20,740 bases of DNA, taken from the IMG/VR virus record IMGVR_UViG_3300034522_000014, positions 1 to 20,740 of that record. The stretch is one strand, 5' to 3'. Below, piece by piece: positions 2,266 to 16,942 of this stretch; position 1 is the first letter of the stretch; the number at the start of each line of letters is the position of its first letter. The notes below the pieces were generated by a model. It had not been told where the DNA came from. It worked only from the letters and a program-made list of their open reading frames with translations, and searched no databases. The DNA is from a virus. Position numbers and translations under genes: made by a program.

Positions 2266-4071
2266 TCAGTAAGACATGGGTAACGTTATCCGTCCCCCAT
2301 CTTCGGCGCTGTATTCCCTACGCCCTCCCTTCCCGTCGATCATGGTGATCTCAAGTTTCAATTTTTGCTCAGCCATCGCACTCATGAAGGAGCGTGTAAT
2401 ATTATCGGTAAGGGTCTTATCTGGTCCCGAACGCTGCAACTCTGGCTGAATGATTCCGTCTCCAGAGGATTGTTCGTTCACCGGACTGTCAGGGAAAGTA
2501 TCACTTTGCTGTTTTTCTTCATTGATAATTTTCTGGTAATGACCGAGCACCGCATCAGGATAAGCCCGGTTCACAGGGCCCCAGCGACTTGTGTCATATC
2601 CCCCGTGATAGTATCGAAGCGCCAAAGGAACATCGCCGCCTGACCTCAGTAAGTTTTCGGATAAAATTTGTGCTCCAGCATTAATGTTCTGGTTTGGGTC
2701 GGTCCAGTCCGTTATCCCGGTTGCTTTGAAGTTTGGTCGGATTATCTGCATTAACCCATAAGCATCAGCACTACTTGTAGCATTAGGGTTACCCCCTGAT
2801 TCTTGCATCATGACAGCTTTGAGCAATCGTGGGTCAACGCCCCATTTTTTACCTGCATCACTAAAAATTGAATCATACTGCTCCCCCTGGTTATAAGGCA
2901 CATAACTATTACCAGGCGCATCCCGGCGAGTAATAACTGATATATCGTCCTGCAACTGGAGTGCGTTATCCGTTGCCTGGTAGCTCGCATCGTATCGTTT
3001 ACTGACGGCGTCAGTGTAAATTCCGGCATCTACTGCACCACGTTCACTTCGGGGCAGGCTGTTATAAAGCGCTTTATCGTTCTGAATGCGGCGAAGTTTA
3101 GTTGCTTCATCGCTGTTGATGATGCCAAGCGCATGAGAAAGGCCGGTAAAGTCACCGTTGGTGAACAGATCGGTAACGCCTTCAAGTCCGTCTTTAACTG
3201 AACCATCCGATAGAATGGTATTAAGCGCCTTGTTTTTTGAACGTTGCCACAGCCCATCCCAGGAGGCGCTAAGTTCATTCATCGTGCCATTGATGTCGCT
3301 GAGCTCTTTATTAAGTTCAGGATCAATTGTTAGCCCAAACTTATCCGATTTTGCCAACAGATTTGTTAGCTTGGCCCCTTCACGCATTAATGCCAGCATT
3401 TCCGGGGTAAAAGCCATTGCATCCGCAAATGACTTTTGCTGTTCAGGACGCAATGTAGGAAACACTCTGGCTATCTCCTGCAGTGTTCTTAGTACATCAA
3501 CAGATCCATCTTTATTTTTTTGTATCTGTACGCCAATCTGTGCCATTGCCCCCAGAGCCTGGCTGTTTGCTCCACTATTAGCTTCTTTTAGTGTTTTTGC
3601 TATCCCCTCAATAGAAGTTCTGGCACTTTCGCTTGCAGAGCCATTAATTTGCATTGCACCAGCAAGCCGTGAGAATTCATCAATCCGCATCCCTGCATTT
3701 TTTGCAGACACATCAAGATTGTATGCTTCCCTGGACGCTTCCCGAAAGCCATAGGCAACCTGTTTGAGTCCATAACCGGCAGCACCAACAACCCCAAGCG
3801 CACCAAGTTTACCGGAAAGTTCCCCCACCATTTTCAATGGAGGAACCATATCCCCGATAAGTTGCACGTTATCCCTGGCCGTTTTAGACAGATTTTCAAA
3901 GCGTGAAATAAAGCCATTTAGCCCATCAACTGTTTCCTGCCCACCCAACTGAAGCCCTTCCTTGGTTCTATCGAGTTTGGGTTCAAGGCCACGGATAGCT
4001 TCGTTGATACGGTCAATAACATCACTAACCTGATCATTAGCCACCAGCTCAAAATCAAAGACATTACTCAT
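2266..4071 (-). CDS. Tail tape measure protein with lytic transglycosylase domain
   Basis: This 601-residue protein is the tape measure that sets tail length and is ejected with the DNA. Residues 1-380 are long, Ala/Ser-rich and helical, with a hydrophobic glycine-rich patch near residues 88-105. Residues ~405-515 form a soluble lytic transglycosylase-like domain: VMMQESGGNP carries the presumed catalytic Glu at residue ~424, followed by AYGLMQI and ALRYYHGGYD, the family signatures. Such a domain would locally cut peptidoglycan during entry. The start ATG overlaps the end of the frameshifted chaperone reading frame. Gene order (sheath, tube, chaperone, tape measure, N, P) is that of Mu. At ~600 residues it is on the short side for a myovirus tape measure, implying a fairly short tail. 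Confidence 0.9.
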   Translation of the reverse strand: MSNVFDFELVANDQVSDVIDRINEAIRGLEPKLDRTKEGLQLGGQETVDGLNGFISRFENLSKTARDNVQLIGDMVPPLKMVGELSGKLGALGVVGAAGYGLKQVAYGFREASREAYNLDVSAKNAGMRIDEFSRLAGAMQINGSASESARTSIEGIAKTLKEANSGANSQALGAMAQIGVQIQKNKDGSVDVLRTLQEIARVFPTLRPEQQKSFADAMAFTPEMLALMREGAKLTNLLAKSDKFGLTIDPELNKELSDINGTMNELSASWDGLWQRSKNKALNTILSDGSVKDGLEGVTDLFTNGDFTGLSHALGIINSDEATKLRRIQNDKALYNSLPRSERGAVDAGIYTDAVSKRYDASYQATDNALQLQDDISVITRRDAPGNSYVPYNQGEQYDSIFSDAGKKWGVDPRLLKAVMMQESGGNPNATSSADAYGLMQIIRPNFKATGITDWTDPNQNINAGAQILSENLLRSGGDVPLALRYYHGGYDTSRWGPVNRAYPDAVLGHYQKIINEEKQQSDTFPDSPVNEQSSGDGIIQPELQRSGPDKTLTDNITRSFMSAMAEQKLKLEITMIDGKGGRREYSAEDGGRITLPMSY

Positions 4072-4491
4072 CGTCTTCAGGTTTCCTGAGTTTGTTGATC
4101 CGGGATGCCTGGGCTATCCACCATTTCAATCGGGCGCGGGTCATCCCCCACGCCCTATCTTCTGTCCATCGGAAATAGAAAGTTACATCAGCTGCCGATT
4201 CCTGCCAGGCCGTCAGGCCTTCCAGGTCAAAAAACTAAGCAGGTACTCCTCACACTTGCGAAAATCAATGAAGTCCATCGGCTGCAGAACGCTTTCACGC
4301 GTATCTGTTACGAGCGCAATTAGTAAACGCATTGCTGCGAGAGACGTAGATGCAGCCTGTTTTTCATAAAACTGCTCGGCCTGGCTGAGGGTCGGAGCTT
4401 TTAGTTCAAGCTCCGGATAGGTCATTTTTTTCGTCGTATCCTCAAGAGGCTTTACGAGAGGGATAATTTTTACACGTTCTAATTCAGCCAT
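4064..4491 (-). CDS. Tail assembly chaperone, -1 frameshift product (GT-like)
   Basis: Ribosomes that slip back one base on T TTT TTG (4234-4228) leave the zero frame and continue through 54 further codons, from GAC at 4228 to TAA at 4066-4064, giving a 142-residue fusion. The extension begins DLEGLTAWQESAADVTFYF and includes WGMTRARLKWW and ends LRKPEDDE. It has no start codon with a good ribosome site of its own and fills the gap between chaperone and tape measure exactly, its stop overlapping the tape measure start. This is the arrangement known for lambda G/GT and many long-tailed phages (established). That slippage occurs here is inferred from the slippery site, the frame phase and the open extension. 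Confidence 0.85.
4213..4491 (-). CDS. Tail assembly chaperone, zero-frame product (Mu gp41-like)
   Basis: The protein has 92 residues, starting at MAELERVKIIPLVKPLED. The ATG at 4491 is chosen over an upstream in-frame ATG because GGAGAA lies just upstream and the longer version would run into the tube gene. The sequence has the charged, helical character of the Mu gp41 tail assembly chaperone family, which coats the tape measure while the tube polymerises. Position between tube and tape measure genes is diagnostic. Its 3' end contains a -1 slippery heptamer (4234-4228) five codons before the stop, so this is probably the abundant G-like form, with a rarer extended form described separately. 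Confidence 0.88.
   Translation of the reverse strand: MAELERVKIIPLVKPLEDTTKKMTYPELELKAPTLSQAEQFYEKQAASTSLAAMRLLIALVTDTRESVLQPMDFIDFRKCEEYLLSFLTWKA
4228..4234 (-). promoter_or_regulatory. Programmed -1 ribosomal frameshift slippery site
   Basis: On the minus strand TTTTTTG lies in the phase T TTT TTG relative to the chaperone frame, matching the X XXY YYZ rule for tandem slippage. The zero-frame stop follows 12 bases after it. GC-rich sequence downstream (GGCCTGACGGCC at 4219-4208, an inverted repeat GGCC...GGCC) might act as a weak stimulatory structure. Confidence 0.85.
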
Positions 4492-12758: not shown

Positions 12759-14882
12759 TTATTTCGGCAGAAGTTGTGACATTCGCTTACGCTTAACCGG
12801 TGCAGCTTCTTCAATGACAACGCCGGGTAACTCGTAGCTGATCTGTTCTTCCTGCTTAGTGGGAGCTGGCAGGAATTTATCTGGGTTAGCTTCCAGATTT
12901 GCTGCCCGAACGTTCAGCTTCAGCCCCATATGCATAAGCCCACAGAGCGCGGCGTAACCATAAACACGGCAATCCAAAGCTTCGTTAGCCCTACCAGGAA
13001 TAGCTTCCCAAACGCTGAAACGCTGTCCTGCAACCACCTTGTATACGAGCCGCTCAGCAAGTAGTTGGTTGAAGTAACCAATATCCCGATCCTCCGGGAA
13101 ATGCATATATCCAGCTGCAGGCATACCAGGCGCTGGCGGTTCAAGGTGCAGTCGCCCACGAATTGCATCCTTCGCAGAGTTAACACCCAGAATGATTGGC
13201 CTGAATTGCGCTTTGCTTTTCGATGAAGGTCTTTTTGTCGGCCAGACTGGGTTTCGTTTCCCACCCTGTGCTGATTCGCCTTTGATGGCCCAGATACGAC
13301 GCCCGAGCCGTTCTTTTGCAAACTCGTAAACTTTCTGAGTGTGGTGACCACCGGAGTCATGACAGGCCGCCATGATGGTTAGTCCCCGGCCATCAGCCCT
13401 ACGCCATACTTGTTTGAGGTACGCATCAAGCCGCCGCCATGGTTCATCAGTTTCGAGATCGCCATAGATAACATCATGGGAAACGGACCAGGACTCTTCG
13501 TTTCTCCCCCAGCCAATTACTTCAATCTCAAAGCGATCGTCCTGGGTATCAATTCCAGCCGTCAGCAATGCAACGCCATCCGGAACTTTTGCTGGGAAAA
13601 CCTCACGGCGAGATAGAAGAATATCTACCGGAAGCTGCTTACCGTGATTTGGCCTGTGAGGTAGCCCCATTTGGGTATTCCACCAGGCTTGCTCTTTGTC
13701 CGGGTCCCCTTTAGCTTTGATGTACTTCTCAGCGATATCAGATGGTTTATCTTTCTGCCAGGGGCTAAATAATTTTGATGCCTGGTATCCGGCGTGATGG
13801 TTATCAACGGCTTCACGCCCACAATCCGGGCACGTCGCACGATAGACAGCGTGGCGCTCAGACTCGGACCAGCTCCAAACTTTATCGACACTCCCCTCAT
13901 CCACAATTCGCCAGGCCGCGTCATAATCCATCAATGGGGAATGACGATTACCGCAGCACTCAAACGGACGGGTCTGGTGCCATCGGATGGTCTGTAATGC
14001 TCTTAACCGTTCCCCCTCTGACCAACCAGCCCCACAACATTCACAGTACAGCATGGCTGACTTAGTCAGATGCTTATCCCCGTCTTTCGGCCATTGAACG
14101 TGCTTAAAGAAATCAGGGAATTGTCGATGGCCACAGTGCGGACAAACAACAGAGGCCCGGCGCTGGTCTGAATCTGCATAGCTATCCGCTATACGGCTTT
14201 CATCCTCAACCGTGGGAGAACAGGCTCTGACAGACAACCAGGTTAGGCCAAAAGTAGCGGTTCGTTCTTCCGCCAGGGCGATAGGATCACCTTCACGGGT
14301 AATCGGATATTTATCTACCTCATCCGCCAGAAGGACACGGATCGGACGACGCGCAAGGTTATCCGGGCTACCAGCACCAGCCAGTGCCAGAAAGCCGCCA
14401 GTAAACGATTTGTAGAGAATGGTTTCTTTAGAGCTCTTTTGCTTTGAATCACCAATAATTTTACGAAGTACTGGTGTCACCCTAACCAGTGGGGTGATGC
14501 GCTCTTTCGAGAACTGCTCAGCAGCTTCTTCTTTCGGCTGCAGCAGAAGCATCGGACACGGATCAAGATGAGCAAAATAACCAAACAGGTTTTCCAGCAG
14601 CGCGGTTTTCATCAACTGGGTACAGCACATAACCGTTATGACGTGAACGCCAGATTCTGTTGCCGCCAGCATTGGCCCACGGGCAATTTCAACCGTAGAG
14701 GTTTCCCAGTTACCGGAAGTACTGCCTGCCTCTTTCGCTAGTTTGCGGAAATCGTCCGCCCACTGAGCCACGCTAATTCTCGGTGGTGGAGTCCATCCTT
14801 TCCGGACACTAAGCCTAAGTCGCTCAATCTTCCGCTGGGTTAAATTCTGGCTCTCCGAGGACTGAGATATGTTTGTGGACAT
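12759..14882 (-). CDS. A: Terminase large subunit (lambda gpA family)
   Basis: This protein of ~707 residues is the ATP-driven motor and nuclease that cuts and packages DNA. The ATPase part has the region VMCCTQLMKT near residue 90 (Q/Walker A position), LLLQPKEEAAEQFSKERI, and a Walker B-like VLLADEVDKYP near residue 190. Cysteine pairs CPHCGH, CECCGAG and CPDCGRE (about residues 240-360) look like zinc ribbons. The nuclease part starts at LLTAGIDTQDDRFEIEVIGW, with an acidic metal ligand, and includes CHDSGGHHTQKVYEF and DCRVYGYAALCGL. I chose the ATG at 14882; a TTG six bases upstream, closer to GAGGTG, is possible. It overlaps the small terminase gene by about 60 bases. Confidence 0.94.
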   Translation of the reverse strand: MSTNISQSSESQNLTQRKIERLRLSVRKGWTPPPRISVAQWADDFRKLAKEAGSTSGNWETSTVEIARGPMLAATESGVHVITVMCCTQLMKTALLENLFGYFAHLDPCPMLLLQPKEEAAEQFSKERITPLVRVTPVLRKIIGDSKQKSSKETILYKSFTGGFLALAGAGSPDNLARRPIRVLLADEVDKYPITREGDPIALAEERTATFGLTWLSVRACSPTVEDESRIADSYADSDQRRASVVCPHCGHRQFPDFFKHVQWPKDGDKHLTKSAMLYCECCGAGWSEGERLRALQTIRWHQTRPFECCGNRHSPLMDYDAAWRIVDEGSVDKVWSWSESERHAVYRATCPDCGREAVDNHHAGYQASKLFSPWQKDKPSDIAEKYIKAKGDPDKEQAWWNTQMGLPHRPNHGKQLPVDILLSRREVFPAKVPDGVALLTAGIDTQDDRFEIEVIGWGRNEESWSVSHDVIYGDLETDEPWRRLDAYLKQVWRRADGRGLTIMAACHDSGGHHTQKVYEFAKERLGRRIWAIKGESAQGGKRNPVWPTKRPSSKSKAQFRPIILGVNSAKDAIRGRLHLEPPAPGMPAAGYMHFPEDRDIGYFNQLLAERLVYKVVAGQRFSVWEAIPGRANEALDCRVYGYAALCGLMHMGLKLNVRAANLEANPDKFLPAPTKQEEQISYELPGVVIEEAAPVKRKRMSQLLPK

Positions 14883-15387
14883 TTTCAATCAGCACCTCTG
14901 TCATCCTGTCCGCTGGCACATCCAGATCAGCAGCCATCAACGGTGCCACTCGGGAAGGCCAGTTCAGCCAGGCATCACGCTGTTGGCGAAAGGCGTTGAA
15001 AAGAACCTCCTCGGCGGCAACCAATTCAATTGTCTGGCCGCTGTCTTTTTCATACTGAAGCTTTGCCAGCAGAGCCATATAGTTTTCACGTACCCTTGCA
15101 GCCTCTTCCCTGCTCAGTGTTGCACCTTCGGTAAGAATAATTTGCTGGGCCGCTTTCTCAATTTCAGTACCACCGTCATTACTGGCGGCAGGTGTTTTCT
15201 TTTTTTTCGCGTTCGTGGCTCGCGGGTCTTTACCATCACGATTTTTCTTTAGCGCTGCATCACTGGCTTCAACATCAATCAGGTCACCATCCATCACGAT
15301 GAAACGACCAGCTTTTATCCAGCGCCCGATGGTCTTACGGTCAACCCCCGAGTGTTGCGCGTACTGGCTCTGATTCATCGTTGTCAT
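14824..15387 (-). CDS. Terminase small subunit (Nu1-like)
   Basis: The protein has 187 residues. Its N-terminus, QSQYAQHSGVDRKTIGRWIK, then AGRFIVMDGDLIDVEASDAA, is a winged helix-turn-helix of the Nu1 / phage DNA-packaging type that recognises the packaging site. A Lys-rich linker (residues ~48-70) follows, then a long helical region with AARVRENYMALLAKLQYEKD that should mediate dimerisation and contact with the large subunit, and a C-terminal end (ENVHKHISVLGEPEF) typical of the family. AGGTGA six bases upstream supports the ATG at 15387. The first TGGGACAT repeat of the adjacent cluster overlaps the start codon, so protein binding to these sites could also repress its own expression (inference). 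Confidence 0.88.
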   Translation of the reverse strand: MTTMNQSQYAQHSGVDRKTIGRWIKAGRFIVMDGDLIDVEASDAALKKNRDGKDPRATNAKKKKTPAASNDGGTEIEKAAQQIILTEGATLSREEAARVRENYMALLAKLQYEKDSGQTIELVAAEEVLFNAFRQQRDAWLNWPSRVAPLMAADLDVPADRMTEVLIENVHKHISVLGEPEFNPAED

Positions 15388-15463
15388 GGGACATCACCTG
15401 GGACATTTTTTGATTGGGACATTCGCCTGGGACATTTTTCAAATGTCCCACCTAAATGTCCCA
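15387..15463 (+). repeat. Cluster of TGGGACAT repeats, candidate terminase-binding (cosB-like) site
   Basis: Six copies of the heptamer TGGGACA followed by T lie within 77 bases: plus-strand copies begin at 15387, 15399, 15415 and 15428, and minus-strand copies occupy 15444-15450 and 15457-15463. A seventh copy (followed by C) begins at 15528. Start-to-start spacing of the first six is 12-16 bases. The fourth and fifth form a perfect 10-bp inverted repeat with a 3-base centre (15428-15450). The cluster abuts the small terminase start, the place of cosB in lambda. Confidence 0.9.
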
Positions 15464-15625
15464 CTGGAATAAACAGGAATAATCAGCGCTGGCGCGGTAT
15501 GCCAGATGATCCACCCATGGTGGGGCATGGGACACAAATTCAAATTTTGTAGCTAGGAAAACAACGCGGCGCGCAATGCCCGTGCCTTACAAAAGTCACA
15601 GGAAGGACCCAAAAAGGGTTGGGGG
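15464..15625. other. Non-coding interval upstream of terminase, probable cos region
   Basis: No gene is credible between the gpZ-like stop and the repeat cluster. It holds one further TGGGACA copy (15528-15534), an AT-rich inverted stretch (CAAATTCAAATTTTG at 15535-15549), a GC-rich segment around GCGGCGCGC (15567-15575) and a short ACCC/GGGT inverted repeat (15608-15620). In lambda-type genomes the cohesive-end nick site lies here; the GC-rich segment is the best position, but the exact cut site cannot be read from sequence alone. Confidence 0.45.
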
Positions 15626-16264
15626 TTATTTTGCCGTTCGAATTGCCTCAGCTATGGCGCTGCTGAGCGCACCCGGTAGCAGACCAGATGCCATTGCGCG
15701 TGAGCGGTCCATATAGCCCAGTACAGGAGTCACCGGTAGCGCATCACCAAACCGAATCAAAAGCTTTGGAGAACGCTGTTTACGCTTCGGTCTTCGCGTC
15801 CCATTAGCGGAGCGCTTGGCTCGTCGCTTCTTAGCTTTCATCGGTTTCTTACGCTGCCAGACGGCGTTAACACCATCGACCTCGCCTACGAATACATTTT
15901 CCTTTGCTTTAAGCTGTGAGAGCTTATTACGCGGCATGTTGCCGTATTTGTTCAGCTTAACGTTCTTGGGATTCAAAAGAGCCTGACTATTGAGCTTGTG
16001 CTCTCCACCAAACTCGAATGGTTCCAGATAACCAGCAGCGGTATCACGGACAAAAACCTTTGCGGTCAGATTGTTCTTTCTCGCGGCAACCGAGCCAACC
16101 GATTTGATCGTAAACGGTGTAGGGCTCTCCAGATGTCGTTCAAATGCCGTCTTTTGCGCTGACTCTATCTGGCGTACAACTTTTGTCATCGCCTGAGCAG
16201 TGGCGAACGGTATCTGTTTCTGCAATAGTTTCAGATGATTAGAAAGCTCATTGAGATGTGGCAT
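15626..16264 (-). CDS. gpZ-like minor tail / morphogenesis protein
   Basis: The protein has 212 residues if started at the ATG (MPHLNELSNHLKLLQKQIPF) at 16264; a TTG fifteen bases earlier is possible but less likely. An N-terminal helical segment FATAQAMTKVVRQIESAQKT is followed by RHLESPTPFTIKSV, then a very basic stretch (KKPMKAKKRRAKRS and RRPKRKQR, about residues 140-170) and a C-terminal helix. The pattern 'fA.A.A.n.....i......' with a preceding coiled helix and a Lys/Arg-rich middle resembles lambda minor tail protein Z and related head-tail completion proteins. In lambda, Z lies after FII; here the gene lies before the terminase, next to the packaging region, which is odd. The assignment is by eye and uncertain. 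Confidence 0.5.
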   Translation of the reverse strand: MPHLNELSNHLKLLQKQIPFATAQAMTKVVRQIESAQKTAFERHLESPTPFTIKSVGSVAARKNNLTAKVFVRDTAAGYLEPFEFGGEHKLNSQALLNPKNVKLNKYGNMPRNKLSQLKAKENVFVGEVDGVNAVWQRKKPMKAKKRRAKRSANGTRRPKRKQRSPKLLIRFGDALPVTPVLGYMDRSRAMASGLLPGALSSAIAEAIRTAK

Positions 16265-16342: not shown

Positions 16343-16942
16343 TTAAAAGCCCTTCTTTATAGGATATTTCGACACGAGGTCCATCAATTCGCTGGATGAG
16401 AGATGATACCGATACTCCACACCATCCTCATAAAAAACACGGGCCTTTTCGACAATCAAGGATGCTCCCGCAGCGATTAGCTCAATATTTTTACGGCAAA
16501 TCTCTTGCGATTTAGTCAAGGCTTCATCCAATATTTCACGCTGTTTATCTTTTGCTTGTTCTGTTCCACAAGTTTCTGAATATCGCATACATCTTAAGAT
16601 GTTTGTATATAAGCTCATTATCATTAAATCGCCTCGCCCACCTCGTCTTAATCCTTCATCATGCTTAGATTTATTTAACATTGAATTATCGAAATTCTGT
16701 GCGACTAGCCCTGAGCGAGATATAACTATTAACTCAAAAAATGTTCTCTCAACATGTTTTAATGTAGGCATTGGATAATCAAAGTTATGAGAAGCATACC
16801 CACTTGTTTCGCCATTACTATGAAGTCTGACACAAATGTCTTTAGCTTCATGTCCGTAATAGTGGGCTGCAACCCAATGCCCCATTTCATGAATAGCAGT
16901 TGAATAAATAGATTCCTGAAGTTCAGTTTTCATGATTTGCAT
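16343..16942 (-). CDS. Stand-alone M41 (FtsH)-like zinc metalloprotease domain
   Basis: The 199-residue protein carries HEMGHWVAAHYYG with the HExxH zinc motif at His18-Glu19-His22. Downstream, ISRSGLVAQNF (~residues 74-84) resembles the 'aGraAEe' segment and RRGGRGDLMIMSLYTNIL (~99-116) the 'GasnDl..AT..A' segment of FtsH-family M41 peptidases, making Asp105 the likely third zinc ligand. No AAA+ ATPase domain or membrane segment precedes it, so it lacks the machinery FtsH uses to unfold substrates. AGAGGA six bases upstream supports the first ATG. The gene is visibly richer in A+T than its neighbours and has a candidate promoter and terminator, all signs of a late-acquired 'moron' gene. Its target is unknown; effects on host FtsH-type regulation or defence are only speculation. 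Confidence 0.78.
   Translation of the reverse strand: MQIMKTELQESIYSTAIHEMGHWVAAHYYGHEAKDICVRLHSNGETSGYASHNFDYPMPTLKHVERTFFELIVISRSGLVAQNFDNSMLNKSKHDEGLRRGGRGDLMIMSLYTNILRCMRYSETCGTEQAKDKQREILDEALTKSQEICRKNIELIAAGASLIVEKARVFYEDGVEYRYHLSSSELMDLVSKYPIKKGF

Follow-up and report, generated by a model that had tools for sequence, protein, structure and literature searches.

A repeated heptamer at a small terminase gene as the candidate cosB of a lambda-type cos, with a repeat word that follows the TerS recognition helix

The locus raises the question of why one short word is repeated up to the start codon of a small terminase gene, and which protein would read it. In the window, i.e., the whole 20,740-bp stretch of viral DNA analysed here, there are seven exact copies of TGGGACA, and every one lies inside 15387-15534, on the plus strand at 15387, 15399, 15415, 15428, and 15528 and on the minus strand at 15444-15450 and 15457-15463. 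Six of the seven are full TGGGACAT words packed into 77 bases (15387-15463), and the outermost copy at 15528 reads TGGGACAC. Followed toward the terminase genes, the array begins with an R3-type site (15528..15534, minus strand), an exact TGTCCCA ~47 bp from cosN. Its tandem partner 7 bp away (15521..15527, minus strand) is an eighth, degenerate copy, TGCCCCA on this strand and TGGGGCA on the other, and is intact TGTCCCATGTCCCA in most relatives. Two exact, inverted R2-like sites follow on the plus strand (15457..15463 and 15444..15450), the second being an arm of a perfect 10-bp dyad, TGGGACATTT-TTC-AAATGTCCCA, at 15428-15450. The array ends with four direct R1-like sites on the minus strand. 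All four are exact matches. Those at 15428..15434, 15415..15421, and 15399..15405 are kept at -48/-47, -35/-34, and -18 from TerS, respectively; the fourth (15387..15393) is kept at -6 in most relatives, and its last A is also the A of the TerS ATG (15387-15385). By chance, TGGGACA is expected 2.75 times per shuffled window and ~0.02 times per 148 bp, and when the 330-bp region was dinucleotide-shuffled 1000 times, the count of its most repeated 6-mer was never reached. An earlier, sequence-only reading of this DNA had described six copies in 77 bases, four direct and two inverted, a seventh at 15528, a perfect 10-bp dyad formed by two copies, an overlap with the start codon of the abutting small terminase gene, and no other clusters in the window. 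Exact searching agrees with all of this; the degenerate eighth copy, cosN, and cosQ had been overlooked.

On the minus strand, the order toward the terminase genes is cosQ, cosN, a CTAGCTA...TTTG spacer, the R3-type pair, a spacer of ~60 bp, the two inverted sites, the four direct sites, and the TerS ATG at bp ~194 of cos. The cosQ-like element GGGTCCTTCC (15601..15610, minus strand) has its counterpart in relatives as GGGTCCYTCC, ~20-30 bp upstream of cosN. The cosN itself (GGGCATTGCGCGCCGC, 15566..15581, minus strand) contains a 12-mer that is identical to the 5' overhang mapped in Serratia phage BZS1. This 12-nt cohesive end, GCATTGCGCGCC, was mapped by PhageTerm and by comparing a prophage PCR product with the phage ends (PMC7556043). 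On its right side, the BZS1 genome (record L107) terminates in the same cosQ plus CACGG. In the BZS1 register, the cohesive end of the window would be GCATTGCGCGCC at 15568-15579. The lambda nick register has CG flanks on both sides (PMC4669245), and lambda-register nicks would give GGCATTGCGCGC at 15569-15580, one base off the BZS1 report. The spacer CCTAGCTACAAAATTTGAATTTG (15535..15557, minus strand), from cosN to the first repeat, carries the CTAGCTA...TTTG block, which is kept in many relatives despite different repeat words. The window has, in the arrangement of a lambda-type cos, a cosQ upstream of cosN, a cosN whose 12-nt 5' cohesive end is assigned by sequence identity to the mapped BZS1 overhang, and repeated sites in which R3 falls at bp ~50 and R2 points the opposite way to R3 and R1. 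In the interval from the first pair to the inverted sites, the consensus of an IHF-type site was not enriched over shuffles in 60 long-leader and 101 short-leader regions. We estimate at roughly nine in ten the probability that the array is the cosB, i.e., the candidate TerS-docking part, of a lambda-type cos.

The proteins that would act on such a site are encoded directly after it. The small terminase subunit TerS (187 aa, 14824..15387, minus strand) belongs to PHROG_57 (E 5.9e-33) and has a predicted N-terminal winged HTH, as expected of a Nu1-type small terminase; its recognition-helix codons, DRKTIGRW (residues 16-23), lie at 15319..15342 on the minus strand and are assigned to helix 17-26 of the model. 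The large subunit TerL (12759..14888, minus strand) is of the lambda gpA family and contains both the ATPase and the nuclease domains of this type (Pfam GpA_ATPase, PF05876, 4.9e-65; GpA_nuclease, PF20454, 1e-78). The AlphaFold2 model of TerS (mean pLDDT 76, pTM 0.35) predicts an HTH at the N-terminus (helices 6-13 and 17-26), followed by a C-terminal part that is also helical. The best PDB matches of this model in Foldseek were 7lwr and 7lw0, entries for a viral DNA packaging motor, with lower matches to 1j9i (gpNu1) and 6hn7 (the Rpp paper entry); the E-values are weak (0.29 for the match to known TerS domains) because the shared domain comprises ~50 residues. Searching the solved structures by sequence gave no convincing match with the single TerS query, and with the TerS family profile the best match was RppC, a weak one (E 0.089). 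The window is part of a temperate phage with a Q-like antiterminator, lysis genes, TerS, gpA-type TerL, gpW, a lambda-type portal, head genes, and a contractile-tail sheath. A gene at 16343-16942 (minus strand), with a weak Peptidase_M50B match below the cut-off (E 0.0017), sits between the lysis region and a minor tail gene upstream of cos, which is likely a cargo position.

The repeat word was followed through relatives of this locus. Viral contigs were scanned by cosN or cosQ-cosN patterns alone, which avoids selection by TerS, and the pooled loci comprised 222 cos sites, 191 of them with a recognisable HTH TerS, and a non-redundant set of 178. Word classes were called from the DNA near cosN alone; the split between GTAACA and GTAACG rests on one base, and the rare classes hold one or two loci each. 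Relatives with a TerS identity of at least 82% have TGTCCCA at the same positions, with or without the loss of one or a few sites, whereas those at 60% or below have zero copies of TGTCCCA and a different iterated word instead. This word is GGTAACA in Edwardsiella and Burkholderiales relatives, BZS1, and phiNP, and GTTCGCAC, after the same cosN type, in Achromobacter/Cupriavidus relatives. The cos-seeded search, made without TerS, added many other phages with the same cos and different iterated words, so that the words at the first site include, by lineage, GTCCCA, GTAACA, GTAACG, GTTCGCA, GTCCGCA, GTTTCA, and others. In 176 of the 178 non-redundant loci, no other 6-mer of the region is repeated more often than the one found 45-53 bp from cosN, and the seven main motif classes, 172 loci in total, all have their first site 47-51 bp from cosN. 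This offset stays fixed while the TerS start varies from about +57 to +303 from cosN. The first sites form a tandem pair with a spacing of 7 in 50 loci of the GTCCCA class and 72 of the GTAACA class. Of the 55 GTCCCA-class loci, 49 have an inverted first distal site, and in all classes the copies within an array switch word in concert. The sequence-only reading had proposed to search relatives with the same small terminase for conserved spacing, and both motif and spacing are indeed kept with related TerS. The opposite pattern, repeats shared with unrelated terminases and missing with related ones, was not seen, since divergent TerS come with a different iterated word.

By comparing word and protein within this set, the part of TerS that goes with the word could be narrowed down. 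The aligned recognition helices comprise 41 strings, of which none is common to more than one word class. The helix of the GTCCCA class is [DN]RKT[IV][GST]RW in 55 of 55 loci, that of the GTTCGCA class S[DE][TM]LVR[RK]A, that of the GTCCGCA class DEKQVRR, and that of the GTTTCA class SHTAV[GS]KW. In the GTAACA class, 87 of 88 loci have R at position 2, and all six of the GTAACG class have K there. The word is shared by 99.9% of pairs with an HTH identity of at least 0.7, compared with 72% of pairs with a C-terminal identity of at least 0.7, and 8 word changes are needed on the HTH tree (minimum 7) vs 17 on the C-terminal tree; related sequences are non-independent, so the pair statistics express association, and the tree counts and domain-swap cases are least affected by shared descent. 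In these sequence comparisons, the repeat word tracks the TerS recognition helix and not the TerS C-terminus.

It could be argued that this match reflects nothing but common ancestry and that the repeats have no recognition role, as arrays and TerS are co-inherited within a lineage. We regard this as highly improbable, because nearly identical TerS C-termini occur with different words and HTHs. The TerS of L089 (GTCCCA) and L197 (GTAACA) have a C-terminal identity of 90% and an HTH identity of 53%. Those of L018 and L355 are 94% identical in the C-terminal region, their aligned helices differ by one residue (H/R), and their words differ by one base (GTTTGCA/GTTCGCA), with other HTH differences also present. 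Conversely, one word is found with two TerS C-terminal types, both GTCCCA and GTAACA having been seen with each of the two. In addition, all copies of a word change together. Moreover, cultured phages agree in word and helix with the classes they resemble, AcaML1 (GGTTTCCA, helix SHTAV) with the GTTTCA class and Haddon/Turba (GGTTAAC, helix SRAYV) with the GTTAACA class.

The recognition of the word by TerS would act on DNA, and the GTAACA class separates DNA-level from protein-level selection. In its 75 short-leader loci, the TerS start codon comes shortly behind the first pair, and the remaining copies fall in TerS codons, where they coincide with Gly-Asn linkers (2.5 GN per protein). In its 13 long-leader loci, on the other hand, the array is non-coding and the linker holds 0.08 GN per protein. 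The same word can be coding or non-coding, and therefore the DNA word is the conserved entity. A further cosN class with CGTTACAC repeats was noted in L318-L361 (e.g., L318, L340, and L352), whose TerS have an N-terminal region with repeated Val-Thr, consistent with embedded sites.

The array is also found outside complete phages. Three E. coli satellites, L368, L369, and L370 (NZ_CP027550, NZ_CP070229, and NZ_CP141863), each contain a complete cosQ-cosN-TGGGACA array, at three chromosomal sites (thiM/rcnR, nfeF/tRNA-Ile, and tRNA-Pro/yejO). They carry integrase, Icd-like, primase or RepA-type replication, ssb, ProQ, and PerC genes, and their annotation contains no TerL or structural genes. 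In all three, a second cosQ-cosN on the same strand lies 4.9-5.3 kb upstream, with six copies of GTGTAAA. A search of the viral contigs for a cos with this word (TTTACAC) gave no match, and therefore it looks satellite-specific. After the second cos, L369 encodes two TerS-like proteins, one HTH-less (PHROG_57 E 1.1e-7) and one with an HTH (E 3.2e-14); these adjacent genes (13977-14333 and 14333-14866) are possibly a split terminase small subunit for hijacking. The strain of NZ_CP141863 also carries a GTCCCA-class prophage, L363. The two-cos islands may be packaged by a helper phage. A family-wide genome pattern search gave 4 of 392 sampled genomes. Two neighbouring observations concern E. coli: an island beside hpt (L377:12088-12975, NZ_CM169492) combines a cosQ-cosN and a GTGTCAA array with an HTH protein that resembles TerS (helix SRQALYNW), and prophage L363 (442-1587) carries heat-labile enterotoxin II-like A and B genes in the holin-endolysin interval, by annotation only.

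The position of the array at the start of TerS and its operator-like dyad would also suit an operator through which TerS or another regulator controls terminase expression, since the sites adjoin and overlap the start codon. As the main function, this is very unlikely. A promoter-like site was looked for in 15300-15700 and none was found, the position of the array is fixed to cosN and not to the gene start (about +57 to +303), and in short-leader relatives the sites lie within the ORF. In the satellites, the TGGGACA array stays beside cosN although there is no large terminase gene and no TerS after the array, as would be expected of a packaging site and not of a gene operator. The sequence-only reading had thought the array possibly autoregulatory; that suggestion finds no support in the promoter search or in the satellite arrays, and a secondary autoregulatory role may still accompany packaging.

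The heptamer is not confined to cos sites. A scan for three direct TGTCCCA copies listed 80 viral contigs, in 10 of which cosN was present by pattern. Five further listed contigs (L113, L388, L391, L397, and L427) have TerS-adjacent arrays with a truncated, variant, or lost cosN, and the remaining ones contain coding repeats or other arrays, some near VapE/DUF5906/DUF927 genes. The heptamer was thus rejected as a stand-alone cos marker, since most of the 80 listed contigs are not cos and TGTCCCA iterons occur elsewhere, some beside replication genes. In L391 (about 4030-4370), the TGGGACA array and TerS are kept and the cosN side looks replaced by transposase-like sequence, so this is likely a packaging-dead prophage. 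Five unrelated phages (L380, L398, L406, L410, and L424) have dense TGTCCCA iterons beside VapE/DUF5906 helicase-type genes, several in both orientations, which are possible replication-origin iterons using the same heptamer. Such arrays near VapE/DUF5906/DUF927 primase-helicase genes would lend themselves to the view that the array in the window consists of origin iterons that adjoin terminase by accident. We see hardly any chance of this, because the window array has no adjoining replication gene, every GTCCCA-class cos array is paired with a [DN]RKT..RW TerS, and the word switches with the helix.

The TGGGACAT words are very probably docking sites for selecting the phage's own DNA to package. 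We hypothesize that the winged HTH of TerS recognises (A)TGTCCCA, a word of 7-8 bp, both in the R3-type pair, which lies ~47 bp from cosN, and in the R2/R1-type cluster, where two copies are inverted and four direct. The docked TerS would place the gpA-type TerL on cosN, TerL would make the 12-nt staggered cut there, and packaging would start toward the terminase genes. Physical binding, cleavage at the cosN of the window, and the role in choosing DNA are what we infer from sequence comparison. The proposal of the sequence-only reading, a cosB-type array read by a winged-helix TerS, gains support, as the word tracks TerS relatedness and the cohesive end mapped in BZS1 is found where it would be expected. 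By its sequence organization, the locus is a lambda-type cos whose cosB has a multi-copy array and represents a new word class, with a probably modular specificity that switches in concert.

TerS HTH and iterated word together probably form an exchangeable cassette for packaging specificity. In such a cassette, cosN and the TerL-binding TerS domain would remain constant, the HTH would be replaced, and all 5-10 copies would be rewritten at once, often with the array within TerS linker codons, and some satellites would combine two cos, one bearing the satellite's own word along with TerS-like proteins, the other the helper's word. If this is true, a readable residue-to-base code would follow, e.g., D/N at helix position 1 with GTCC, and K instead of R at position 2 with a final G instead of A. 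Experimental work on packaging specificity in lambda-like phages covers a handful of TerS/R-site pairs (lambda, 21, and N15), whereas in the TerS/word family the natural pairs number well over a hundred, spread over about ten word classes with fixed geometry, and some differ mainly in the HTH. These natural pairs make the TerS-DNA recognition code, and its switching without loss of packaging, directly testable. They would also provide a sequence rule to predict which phages could package which satellites, and suggest that satellites can bear two specificities. Literature searches on the TerS recognition helix and packaging specificity gave the lambda/21/N15 and PICI papers; among the best 20 of 978 open-licence papers found with the motif strings, none linked these words to cos, which is weak evidence of novelty.

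Among the closest known systems is lambda cos (cosQ-cosN-cosB with R3, I1, R2, and R1, served by gpNu1/gpA). Its R3 occupies bp 50-65, its R2 has the opposite orientation to R3 and R1, its Nu1 gene begins at bp 191, and the spacing between cosN and R3 is critical (PMC9026076). The window shares with lambda cos the cosQ GGGTCC, a 12-nt cohesive end, a first site ~50 bp from cosN, inverted and then direct sites, the TerS start (bp ~194 vs 191), a gpA-family TerL, and a winged-HTH TerS. However, the R word of the window is 7-8 bp, compared with 16 bp common to lambda R2 and R1, and there are 8 copies with a tandem R3 pair instead of three. In addition, lambda has the IHF site I1 between R3 and R2, and none was recognised in the window; the N15 and PICI cos lack an IHF site. 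In N15, R3 is at bp 48-60 (PMC9026076), and its cosB, with a single R3 and with rR2 inside gene 1, resembles the short-leader relatives that start TerS soon after R3; rR2 (bp 249-260) is a single-copy precedent for their inverted copies inside the TerS gene. Unlike N15, these relatives have up to ten copies, mostly coding for a repetitive linker, and the window itself has a long leader. Serratia phage vB_SspM_BZS1 and Citrobacter phage phiNP share the cohesive-end 12-mer, the CTAGCTA spacer, and the tandem R3 pair with the window, and their TerS are related to that of the window (34-36% in the matched part). Their word is GGTAACA instead, in BZS1 TerS starts at record base 75, and the array runs into the TerS coding region; no description of the iterated array was found in the passages of the BZS1 paper covered by the search (PMC7556043). 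The E. coli PICI cos-rpp modules (PMC6739421, PMC9026076) are likewise satellites with cosQ/cosN and without a large terminase gene. The published PICI cos lack repeated R sequences, whereas satellites L368-L370 have two cos, each with an iterated word, and TerS-family proteins (PHROG_57).
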